Notes under the pieces: generated by a model | What the model was told of the DNA's origin: nothing | Databases searched by the model: none | The model's input: only the letters and a program-made list of their open reading frames with translations | Shown: positions 18,517 to 25,239 of the stretch, piece after piece | Position numbering within the stretch: position 1 is the stretch's first letter | Layout of the letters: every line of letters begins with the position of its first letter | Assembly (NCBI GenBank): GCA_028875655.1 | Contig: JAPPCX010000078.1 | Location: 1-38,844, forward strand | Length of the DNA: 38,844 bases | DNA from: Chloroflexota bacterium | GTDB lineage: Bacteria > Chloroflexota > Dehalococcoidia > Lucifugimonadales > UBA3495 | Direction: 5' to 3' | Program-made: the position numbers and the translations under genes

Positions 18517-19818
18517 TTGGCAGTTTCCGCCGGACGCCCGGCTTCGCCCATGATGGAGGTTCTGCAGAACCCCCGCTTCCGGGCTATCTGGTACGTGGTG
18601 AACGTCTCCGAGTTGACCCGCTGGATGGAGTTGCTCGTCACCAGCGTTCTCGTCTATTCGCTGACCAATTCCACCCTCATGTTGGGGCTCGTCCTGGGTT
18701 TTGAGAACCTGCCCCGCCCGATATTCTCTCCCTTTACCGGAATCATCGCCGACCGATTTGACCGCAAGAAAATCTGGATCAGTTCCATGGCGATCAAGCT
18801 GGGGGCCGGCGTCGCGCTGTTCTTCCTGCTCTTTTCCGGCCACATTGCGCCGTGGCACGTTTTCGTTGCCATGCTGCTCCAGGGGGTCAGCCGCGCCCTG
18901 GAAGACCCGGCCCGTCGCACCGCCATATTCGACATCGTGGGCGAACGGCGGGTGGTTAACGCCCTGTCCATAGACTCCATGAGCGGTACCGTCGGGCGCA
19001 TGGTCGGGCCATTCGTCGGCGGGTTCCTGATTGAGTATATTGGCTATTTCTGGCCACACTACCCCGGTTACACCTGGGCCTACGCCGCCATCTCCATAAT
19101 GCACATCGCCGCGGTCGCGCTGGCAATTCGGGTACGAATCCCACCGGTCGAACGGGAATGGCGCGTGGAACCAATCTGGAACAGCCTCGGCGACGTGGTG
19201 CGGGCCGCTTTCAACCATAAGCAGCTGATCGGGATGCTCTTCATCACGATAATGATTAACGGACTGGCTTTCCCCGCGCGCCAGTTCGTGCCGGCCATCG
19301 GCAGGGATCATCTGGGAGTTGGCGAGACCCTCGTCGGAGTGCTGGCGGCGGCGGAATCGGTAGGCCAATTGGTGACCGCCGTAATCCTGGCATCGGTCGG
19401 AACCGTGCGCTATCACGGGCGGATTTTCGCGGTCGGCGCATTCAGCGTAATGATTACGTCCACGATTTTCGTCTGGTCGCCGTGGTACGCCGTGACCTTT
19501 GCGATCCTCGTTCTCAGCGGCATCGGCTTATCCTGCTTCGGCACCATGCAGGGCGCAATCACCATGCGGTCCTCGCCGCCGGAGATGCGGGGCCGCATGG
19601 TCGGCTTGCAGAGCCTGTGCATCGGCATCGGCACCCCGCCGGGCGTCCTGCTGATGGGCTGGCTGGGCGACCGCATCGGCATACAAACGTCTGTGACGTT
19701 GAACGCATTGGCCTGCATCGCCATCTCCTTGCCCGCGCTGTTCCTGACCCCGTTGGTGACGCGCCCGTCGGATCCGCCGCCCCAAACGGTGGCCCGTCCG
19801 CAAACCGGAGCATCCTGA
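18517..19818 (+). CDS. MFS transporter (EntS/MFS_3-like exporter)
   Basis: This is a 12-helix major facilitator superfamily permease (433 aa). It has many hydrophobic spans and the MFS loop motif GIIADRFDRKKIWISSMAIK between helices 2 and 3, and its second half carries LMGWLGDRIG. The pattern fits MFS_3, the enterobactin-exporter-like group of efflux pumps. The start is the TTG at 18517, with GAGAGG five bases upstream; an in-frame ATG at 18550 (MMEVLQNPRF) is a possible alternative because family members usually begin shortly before the first helix. It is divergent from the sulfotransferase operon, so export of that operon's product is an attractive but unproven idea. Confidence 0.9.
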   Translation: MAVSAGRPASPMMEVLQNPRFRAIWYVVNVSELTRWMELLVTSVLVYSLTNSTLMLGLVLGFENLPRPIFSPFTGIIADRFDRKKIWISSMAIKLGAGVALFFLLFSGHIAPWHVFVAMLLQGVSRALEDPARRTAIFDIVGERRVVNALSIDSMSGTVGRMVGPFVGGFLIEYIGYFWPHYPGYTWAYAAISIMHIAAVALAIRVRIPPVEREWRVEPIWNSLGDVVRAAFNHKQLIGMLFITIMINGLAFPARQFVPAIGRDHLGVGETLVGVLAAAESVGQLVTAVILASVGTVRYHGRIFAVGAFSVMITSTIFVWSPWYAVTFAILVLSGIGLSCFGTMQGAITMRSSPPEMRGRMVGLQSLCIGIGTPPGVLLMGWLGDRIGIQTSVTLNALACIAISLPALFLTPLVTRPSDPPPQTVARPQTGAS

Positions 19819-22955: not shown

Positions 22956-23147
22956 ATGGCAGGCACCAAAACCGCACTCACCGTTGACGTCAACGCGGAG
23001 CACATCGGGCTCATCAACACGTCCAAAGAGAAGTACAACATCGCCGACGAAGGCAAGGTCGTCCGTATCATCATGGACTACCTCATCACCAACCCCGGCA
23101 TCCACGACACCGTTTTCAAGGATGTCCGCTGCCTCCGCTGCGAGTAA
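22956..23147 (+). CDS. 63-residue protein, ribbon-helix-helix-like, with C-terminal CxxC
   Basis: The small protein reads as one beta strand (KTALTVDVN), two helices (about 17-45), and a tail ending CLRCE. A strand followed by two helices is the order of CopG/Arc-type DNA-binding proteins, but the match is by pattern only. The C-terminal Cys-x-x-Cys could bind a metal or be redox active. AGGAG lies nine bases before ATG 22956 (a second ATG at 22950 is only three bases from it), so 22956 is chosen. The frame continues upstream to 22521 through the tRNA gene; that part is not coding. It is convergent with the AroQ-like gene. Confidence 0.7.
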   Translation: MAGTKTALTVDVNAEHIGLINTSKEKYNIADEGKVVRIIMDYLITNPGIHDTVFKDVRCLRCE

Positions 23148-23196: not shown

Positions 23197-23625
23197 TTAT
23201 TCCGCAGTGTGCTTCACCGCTTCCAGGGCCAGGTAATAACCGTACACCCCGAACCCGTACACGCATCCCTTGCTTACCGGCAGCACCGCTGAAACCGTGC
23301 CCCGAGCCGTGGGATTGCTGGCGTGCACCTCGATCACCGGCATCGGCACCTGCTGGATCGCGCCCCGCAGCGGGCCGTTGGCTGTGGTGTAGCCCGCCGG
23401 GTTGATCAGGCACGCGTCGTAGCCTTCCTCCCAGGCCTCGTACAGCGCGTTCACCACTTCGCCCTCGATGTTCGAGTGCACGATCTTCACGTCCACGCCC
23501 AGGCTCTCGCCGTAGCCGCGGATCTGCTCGTTGATCTGGTCCAGCGTGTTGGGGCCGAAGATCTCGACCTGCACCTTGCCGCGCATGTTCATGCCGGCTC
23601 CTTGAATTACCAATACCTTGGTCAT
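23197..23625 (-). CDS. AroQ-like (type II dehydroquinase fold) protein with altered active site
   Basis: The protein (142 aa) aligns along its length with type II 3-dehydroquinate dehydratase: VLVIQGAGMNMRG, IVHSNIEGEVVNALYEAW, CLINPAGYTTANGPLRGAI, PVIEVHASNP and SKGCVYGFGVYGYYLALEAV. Several catalytic positions differ from the classical enzyme. The NGPN loop is QGAG, the loop that normally reads REPxxYG is VQVEIFG (Arg lost, Tyr to Phe), and the His after NPxxYT is Thr. Asn75, Glu99 and His101 remain. Dehydroquinase activity is therefore doubtful; a related lyase or binding role is possible. Its ATG is one base after the protoglobin stop, and its ribosome site CAGGAG lies inside the protoglobin gene. 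Confidence 0.82.
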   Translation of the reverse strand: MTKVLVIQGAGMNMRGKVQVEIFGPNTLDQINEQIRGYGESLGVDVKIVHSNIEGEVVNALYEAWEEGYDACLINPAGYTTANGPLRGAIQQVPMPVIEVHASNPTARGTVSAVLPVSKGCVYGFGVYGYYLALEAVKHTAE

Positions 23626-23626
23626 G

Positions 23627-24271
23627 CTAATTCTCCTGTTGAGTCTGTGGGGAACCGTTACGGCGGCTGCTGTCGGGCGTAACGGTAATTTCCGGCTCTA
23701 TTTCCCTTCCGTCATCGTCCATCAGCGGCGCGTCCGGGCGCGGCGCTGTGGGTGTTTCGGTGATGTAGCCGGCCAGCAATACGTCCAGTTGCAGCATCAG
23801 CATCTTGTTCCAGGCAATGGCCGTTCGCATCGCTGCCACTGGGTCATCCATCTCCTCCGCCAGCGTGGACGCGATCTGAGTCTGGATGAATGAAATGGTG
23901 CCCGTCATAAACCGCGCCGGCACCGAACCATGCCGGCCGGCCGGCGCCGGCGGGTTGCTGTGCACCACCCCCACCGCCAGCAGGAAGACGGGGAACTGCT
24001 CGTCGATGTTAAACTCGATGCTGTTGCGCAGCCAGCGGGCCAGGCTGTGTTTGCGCCGGGTCAGCCGTGTCTCGTTGACCTCGCCGTCCCGGGTCAGGAA
24101 GTAGCGGGCCGTCGCCGGGTAGGACAGGAAATGCTCATAAACGGCAGCAGCCAGATCGTCGGCCCGATCGATCAGCAACGGCCCGCTGGCCCTGAGCAGC
24201 TCCAGGTCATCATCGGTGAATCCCACGAAATCGGCCATTTGCCGCATACGGGCCGGCCAGTCAAAAATCAT
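23627..24271 (-). CDS. Protoglobin / globin-coupled-sensor-like heme protein
   Basis: This is a single-domain heme globin of the protoglobin group (214 aa). The fold is recognised from FTDDDLELLRASGPLLIDRA, VYEHFLSYPATARYF, then FPVFLLAVGVVHSNPP with the proximal His104, FMTGTISFIQTQIASTLAEE, and the last helix TAIAWNKMLMLQLDVLLAGY. A disordered acidic C-terminal tail of about 40 residues follows, and there is no transmitter domain. ATG 24271 is chosen because GAGAGG lies ten bases upstream; the longer TTG start is unlikely. It probably binds O2, NO or CO in the cytoplasm. Its tight coupling to the AroQ-like gene suggests a shared role, unknown at present. Confidence 0.85.
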   Translation of the reverse strand: MIFDWPARMRQMADFVGFTDDDLELLRASGPLLIDRADDLAAAVYEHFLSYPATARYFLTRDGEVNETRLTRRKHSLARWLRNSIEFNIDEQFPVFLLAVGVVHSNPPAPAGRHGSVPARFMTGTISFIQTQIASTLAEEMDDPVAAMRTAIAWNKMLMLQLDVLLAGYITETPTAPRPDAPLMDDDGREIEPEITVTPDSSRRNGSPQTQQEN

Positions 24272-24354
24272 CAAAGGGCGACCTCTCAACCACAGAATCA
24301 GGGTCGGCTTTGACTATACCGCCCCGCCGATTGTCCGGCAACCCAGCATCTACC

Positions 24355-25239
24355 CTACAATCCGCCGCCCCGTTCGGCCCGCAAGAACTGCTCCAGCTCC
24401 ATGACCAACTCGGCCGGATTGGGCATTTCTCTACTTTCGCTGGCCGCGTCGTAGCGTTCTTCCAGTGTAACGATGTATTTGCCCAACTGTTCGTCCTCGG
24501 CAATCACCTTTTCCACTTCGCGGTCGAAAGCGTCGGCCATGCTGTACAGTTTTCCCAGGTCGATGGGCATCGCCAGCATATCCGACAGGTACCGGGCCAG
24601 GCCCAGGCTGACCCGAAAATTCGGCGTAGCGTGCAGGTAGTGGGACACGTGGCCCCACAACGAGGTGTAGCTGATGCCGCGCGCCGCCAACGACTCTGAG
24701 ATCGGCAGCGTTATTCCCGAGGGCCCTTGATAGTTGGACGACCGGATGTTGCCCTTGTCAAAGCTTGCCTGGATGTTGCGGTTGGTGGACGTTCCGGTGA
24801 ACCGTATGGCTCGCGTATGCGGCACCGCGTCCAGCAGGGCGCCGATATGCACCACAGACTTTACGCCACACCGGCGCGCGACATCGCCGACCAGGGATGA
24901 GAACGTGCGCCATCGCAAGTGCGGCTCCGTACCGAGATACAGCACCACCGGGGGCGAGTTAGGATTCCCCCGCCAGAGGTAAAACTCGTTGGCCGGCCAT
25001 TGCAGGTGCCGCGTGCCGTCCTTGCCGCGGGTAGAGCGCGGTCGCTCCTGGGCGAAGTTGAAAAATTCTTCCGGATCAATCTCGGCGAACTTTTCAGCGT
25101 TGAACGTGGTCAGCAGGTAGTTGAGCGTGGCCGTGGCGGCGTCTCCCGCATCCGGCCAGCCCCTGAATGCCACCACCATCCGTTCTACGGAGTTCTCCGG
25201 GAATTCACTTACGATCAGATAATCGTCAAAGTCAGGCAT
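24355..25239 (-). CDS. PAC2 family protein
   Basis: The protein (294 aa) belongs to the PAC2 (proteasome assembly chaperone 2) ATP-grasp-like family, common in Actinobacteria, Chloroflexi and archaea. Family features are VVAFRGWPDAGDAATATLNY near the start, VVLYLGTEPHLRWRTFSSLV, VVHIGALLDAVPHTRAIR, GISYTSLWGHVSHYLHATP and a helical C-terminus. Despite the name the bacterial members have no proven proteasome link. No proteasome gene is seen in the window. No signal peptide or membrane span is present. It lies 87 bases downstream of crcB and 83 upstream of the protoglobin gene on the same strand. Confidence 0.9.
   Translation of the reverse strand: MPDFDDYLIVSEFPENSVERMVVAFRGWPDAGDAATATLNYLLTTFNAEKFAEIDPEEFFNFAQERPRSTRGKDGTRHLQWPANEFYLWRGNPNSPPVVLYLGTEPHLRWRTFSSLVGDVARRCGVKSVVHIGALLDAVPHTRAIRFTGTSTNRNIQASFDKGNIRSSNYQGPSGITLPISESLAARGISYTSLWGHVSHYLHATPNFRVSLGLARYLSDMLAMPIDLGKLYSMADAFDREVEKVIAEDEQLGKYIVTLEERYDAASESREMPNPAELVMELEQFLRAERGGGL

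Follow-up and report, generated by a model that had tools for sequence, protein, structure and literature searches.

Two described groups of globins bear on the locus presented here. The protoglobin of M. acetivorans (PDB 2veb) is a single-domain globin of family PF11563; PMC3680402 deals with the roles of its residues Trp60 (B9) and Phe93 (E11) and states that its biological role is unknown. Globin-coupled sensors such as AfGcHK/NmpU and HemAT carry an output domain in the same chain as the globin. For type II dehydroquinases (AroQ/DHQ2), PMC6011038 lists three essential residues, Arg19, Tyr24 and Asp88 of the neighbouring subunit. According to the same paper, the carboxylate and the C1 hydroxyl of the substrate are held by Asn75, Ser103 and His101, while His81 and Arg112 hold the C5 hydroxyl and Arg108 tunes the tyrosine.

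In the window, the whole stretch of 38,844 nucleotides analysed here, a PF11563 globin is encoded directly upstream of an AroQ-like protein. Neither a pairing of protoglobin with dehydroquinate nor the globin/AroQ-like pair itself was found in print among the open-licence papers covered, and these yielded nothing related on globins in SAR202. By term search, PMC6946804 and PMC10444878 mention neither 'globin' nor 'dehydroquinate' in their main text. A conserved genetic partner provides a testable handle on the role of single-domain protoglobins.

Junction and conservation of the gene pair

As contig 115, the window belongs to a genome of 3.45 Mb; its nearest named relatives are Chloroflexi/SAR202/Dehalococcoidia MAGs. 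In agreement with the preliminary description, the AroQ-like ATG follows the globin stop after a single base, a C, and the AGGAGA that would serve as its ribosome-binding site lies within the globin gene (Table 1). For the globin, an alternative TTG start at 24289 is possible. The layout with AGGAGA inside the globin gene recurs in many relatives. The start codon of the AroQ-like gene lies -8 to +88 bp from the end of the globin gene in all but one lineage, with a 4-base ATGA overlap being frequent; in the outlying lineage (G261) the two genes are separated by ~1.1 kb. These junctions suggest that translation of the two genes is coupled. A globin fused to the AroQ-like reading frame was not seen at any of the junctions of the relatives; one apparent natural fusion, in the open reading frame listing of locus L050, was rejected, as the two frames overlap by four bases.

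Table 1. Features of the window around the globin/AroQ-like pair
Feature	Position	Strand	Remarks
PF11563 single-domain globin, 214 aa	24271..23627	-	ATG start, TAG stop
AroQ-like gene, type II dehydroquinase fold, 142 aa	23625..23197	-	PF01220, residue table, AF2 model
AGGAGA, putative ribosome-binding site for the AroQ-like ATG	23637-23632	-	within the final codons of the globin
PAC2-family gene, upstream of the globin	24355..25239	-	PF09754
MFS_3 exporter homologue	18517..19818	+	3.4 kb from the pair, opposite strand
Small open reading frame, 63 aa, ends in RCLRCE	22956..23147	+	convergent with the AroQ-like gene

Within the GTDB family of the window, the PF11563 globin is present in 34 of 50 genomes and the AroQ-like gene, scored at E <= 1e-30, in 40. 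Both genes occur together in 33 genomes, the AroQ-like gene alone in seven (7/40 of its carriers) and the globin alone in one (G017); nine genomes have neither, several of which are incomplete assemblies. The co-occurrence is significant by Fisher's test (p = 4e-5, relatedness not corrected for). In 32 of the 34 globin-bearing genomes the globin lies just upstream of the AroQ-like gene, in the same order and on the same strand. The remaining two genomes are G016 and G017, where the globin is located at or nearly at a contig edge; the AroQ-like gene of G016 likewise sits at an edge, with its upstream side cut. No genome of the family was found that has a globin with a sequenced downstream flank but no AroQ-like gene. 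The pair is thus kept in related genomes, and it persists down to a globin identity of 45-50%. The pair is not a product of chance but real, conserved and selected. Both genes are under purifying selection, dN/dS being 0.04-0.26 in the globin and 0.02-0.05 in its partner; two genomes of the window's genus share 65% identity in the globin versus 95% in the AroQ-like protein, the globin changing much faster. Across the class, 25 of 197 sampled genomes contain a PF11563 globin, and among those for which the places of both genes are listed, adjacency to the AroQ-like gene is seen only in the window's own genome.

Residues and folds of the two proteins

The globin matches PF11563 with 87.4 bits (cut-off 25, E 1.3e-24). 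Its AF2 model (pLDDT 84) comprises a globin fold from approximately residue 2 to 173, followed by a low-confidence tail of ~40 residues, and matches protoglobins and sensor globins with Z values in the range of 16-20, the VIA Z being 18.6 for M. acetivorans protoglobin and 20.3 for the globin domains of globin-coupled sensors. All 29 aligned globins have Tyr45, Phe58 and His104. In the alignment to the M. acetivorans protein, His104 corresponds to the proximal His120 (F8) and Tyr45 to the distal Tyr61 (B10). Phe58 occupies the CD1 position. Heme-pocket residues other than His104 are therefore present, and the globin very likely binds heme. Neither of the two findings that the preliminary description named as grounds for a chance link, a pair confined to a single genome or a globin without such further residues, applies here.

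As judged from the same alignment, the distal pocket differs from that of the classic protoglobin. The window globin has Val44 at B9 (Trp60 in M. acetivorans) and Leu77 at E11 (Phe93), so both marks of a strict, M. acetivorans-like protoglobin, Trp B9 and Phe E11, are absent from it. It shares with 2veb the PF11563 family, the proximal histidine, the B10 tyrosine, the globin fold and the single-domain architecture, but lacks the long N-terminal extension and differs further in its low-confidence C-terminal tail and its operon-like pairing with the AroQ-like gene. The globin domains of globin-coupled sensors are equally near to it in fold (Z 19-20), but the window globin has no output domain in its own chain, and its possible partner is a separate protein. 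No plasmid relatives of the globin were found.

The AroQ-like protein was described beforehand as divergent, and the scores bear this out. It clearly belongs to PF01220 (112.9 bits, cut-off 23.3, E 1.2e-32) but with 108.3 bits remains below the NCBIfam aroQ equivalog cut-off of 169.85, as it does below the cut-off of each of four PRK05395 models. It is also only 34% identical to an ordinary AroQ encoded on contig 75 of the same genome. Given this second, ordinary AroQ, the AroQ-like protein is a paralogue. The fold itself is that of the family: the best PDB matches of its AF2 model (pLDDT 83) are type II dehydroquinases, with a TM-score on the query of 0.81-0.88. In a tree built after thinning of the rows from the window's genus, 10 ordinary AroQ rows fall on one side of a branch with an SH-aLRT of 95, in an alignment of few columns and with several long branches.

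With AroQ/DHQ2 the protein has in common, besides fold and length, Asn75, Glu99, His101, Ser103 and Arg108, but it has lost the equivalents of Arg19, Tyr24, Asp88, His81 and Arg112 and gained Arg15 and His50. In place of Arg19, Tyr24 and Asp88, which are found in all 10 ordinary AroQ rows, the window protein has Val, Phe and Gly; position 81 is a Thr, and a three-residue deletion after Arg108 removes the 112 region. In 104 aligned subfamily matches, a set that includes repeat copies of the same loci from different collections as well as an outlying second copy (L128), R19 and Y24 are each found in 1 row, D88 and N12 each in 2 and H81 in none, while N75, H101 and R108 are present in 104/104, as is a Ser or Thr at position 103. 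R15 (102/104) and H50 (100/104) are newly near-invariant. The subfamily excludes the betaproteobacterial matches L076-L080, L082 (partial) and L083, which align as ordinary AroQ. Matches to the AroQ-like query were also obtained in 271 plasmid records, all under 60% identity. In the Acetobacteraceae genome G874, a second, much diverged AroQ-like copy lies on the same contig (L128, 739-1200).

That the protein is a working second dehydroquinase using other residues appears highly improbable from this pattern. The fold and the retained Asn75, His101, Ser103 and Arg108 would be compatible with such a function, but the three essential residues, Arg112 and His81 are all lost, and the window's genome as well as both Acetobacteraceae genomes tested encode an ordinary AroQ. 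Of the proposal that the partner is a small lyase-fold enzyme, the dehydroquinase fold stands; a dehydroquinase-type lyase reaction is unlikely, given the loss of Arg19, Tyr24 and Asp88, all essential to it. Since the subfamily falls within the 3-dehydroquinate dehydratase Pfam family without having its catalytic residues, pathway annotation from the family name is unsafe here and, going by these residues, the subfamily should not be annotated as dehydroquinase. A new substrate for the dehydroquinase fold is likely.

Neighbourhoods with and without the globin

Of 43 loci, 28 have a called globin beside the AroQ-like gene; the gene directly upstream of the globin is MFS_3 in 13 of these and PAC2 in 11. 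The counts are those of the automatic gene caller, which missed the globins of L050 and L069, both of which were found by direct search. Five of the 43 loci (L052, L053, L060, L063 and L072) come from other families within the order, a placement made from matching coordinates, identities and identical neighbour strings, and probable for L060/G047. In the window's genus the upstream gene is usually PAC2, while in other genera an MFS_3 gene, PF05977 in one such case, directly precedes the globin. This upstream position of a PF05977 gene recalls the EntS-like MFS_3 exporters, but the pair-linked MFS_3 gene scores below the EntS cut-off. The MFS_3 homologue of the window has 45-50% identity (tblastn) to the pair-linked MFS genes elsewhere. 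On the other side of the pair, the 63-residue open reading frame is the next downstream gene in 31/43 loci and has two invariant cysteines. Profile searches placed it in no known family, with no noteworthy match in Pfam, NCBIfam or PDB; an assignment as ribbon-helix-helix regulator, guessed from its appearance, is without support.

The AroQ-like subfamily extends beyond the pair. With a threshold of E <= 1e-27 it was detected in 85/250 genomes of the order, in 24/249 genomes of an Acetobacteraceae set and in 1/350 genomes of a phylum-wide sample, this one being the window's own. A globin was seen in 0/33 other loci of the order and class and in 0/22 Acetobacteraceae loci. As the AroQ-like gene is widespread without a globin, the latter is best read as an addition made in a single family, which the AroQ-like unit does not require.

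The question then arises whether the two genes share more than a putative transcript. A conserved neighbourhood without shared function, in which the globin handles NO or O2 independently of the AroQ-like protein, would fit with the AroQ-like gene often being alone or with other partners, and with the ~5 changes of the globin-neighbour label that are required on the tree. We nevertheless consider it rather unlikely, because the pair survives changes of the upstream neighbour between MFS_3 and PAC2 even at the lowest globin identities, its junctions are of the overlap type, and no family genome whose globin has a sequenced downstream flank lacks the AroQ-like gene.

The neighbours of globin-free AroQ-like genes point to acid metabolism in part of the cases. 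In other families of the order, the gene is located directly behind an aceE/transketolase-like TPP enzyme in 15/32 loci, and in 17/32 loci a 2-oxo-tetronate/hydroxypyruvate isomerase gene lies within three genes upstream; one representative of the latter was scored and is above both cut-offs (hydroxypyruvate and 2-oxo-tetronate). A GFO/IDH/MocA dehydrogenase is found nearby in several of these loci. In two Acetobacteraceae loci (L128 and L129; 2/22), an enolase-superfamily gene resembling sugar-acid dehydratases is directly upstream on the same strand, and in L141 a similar gene adjoins on the opposite strand; in most of the 22 loci no common theme was found in the neighbourhood. PMC6946804 describes a strong expansion of the enolase superfamily in these bacteria, so some of the neighbours may be due to chance. 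Within the family of the window, the unit has no constant sugar-acid gene. An MFS_3 gene is directly upstream of the AroQ-like gene in the globin-free family loci L062, L065 and L066, and adjoins it in the distant class member L084.

In loci L148-L178 (e.g. L150 and L162), which are from other families of the order, the isomerase-like gene, the aceE-like TPP enzyme and the AroQ-like gene form a conserved run, which is a candidate for a keto-acid pathway. The aceE-like enzyme of this run has ~800 residues and scores far under the aceE cut-off.

Possible roles of the pair

The explanation that we favour, tentatively, is a translationally coupled unit of a repurposed dehydroquinase paralogue for a small hydroxy or keto acid and an O2/NO-binding globin, which would protect or tune the pathway. 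For the AroQ-like protein we infer an enzymatic activity and the substrate class as follows. It keeps the part of the pocket for the hydroxy-carboxylate together with the acid His101, and the positions that contact the ring hydroxyls and remove the proton at C2 have been replaced. SAR202 isolates grow on sugar acids (PMC10444878). Taken together, the retained residues, the keto-acid and acid-sugar neighbours and this sugar-acid use suggest, as the simplest explanation, an enzyme or binding protein for a small hydroxy or keto acid, most likely one of the alpha-hydroxy or 2-oxo (sugar) acids. For the globin we infer heme binding and a protective or tuning role: made together with the AroQ-like protein, it would bind heme and O2, NO or CO, and most likely protects the enzyme's pathway from O2/NO or lets these gases tune it. 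In this one family the globin would add O2/NO handling to the unit, be it by scavenging, sensing or direct contact. An exporter-type MFS transporter would often complete the unit.

The O2- or NO-linked step proposed in the preliminary description is plausible in this light. Its suggestion that the globin acts as oxygen donor is unsupported, as dehydroquinase-fold chemistry uses no oxygen and the pair holds no oxygenase.

A more direct link would be a split gas sensor, in which the globin binds the AroQ-like protein and O2 or NO switches its activity or ligand binding, similar to a globin-coupled sensor. The sensor domains being the closest fold matches of the globin (Z 20.3), the coupled gene order kept through the whole family and the part of the ligand pocket retained by the partner are in line with such an arrangement. 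We judge it unlikely, as none of the junctions holds a natural fusion and many genomes encode the AroQ-like protein with no globin beside it; the much faster evolution of the globin, with 65% versus 95% identity between two genomes of the genus, also argues mildly against a tight, fixed interface. The more specific version, a free sensor-type globin that gates a hydroxy- or keto-acid reaction of the AroQ-like enzyme with O2 or NO, would be quite improbable. If such gating were true, the use of acid sugars in these bacteria would be set directly by gas at the level of the enzyme.

A related globin, 39% identical, was observed without an AroQ-like neighbour in genome G044 (L184, 2200-9498). It is flanked by a TPP enzyme on one side and by genes for hydantoinase/oxoprolinase A and B on the other, and these flanking gene types recur near the AroQ-like gene in some Acetobacteraceae.
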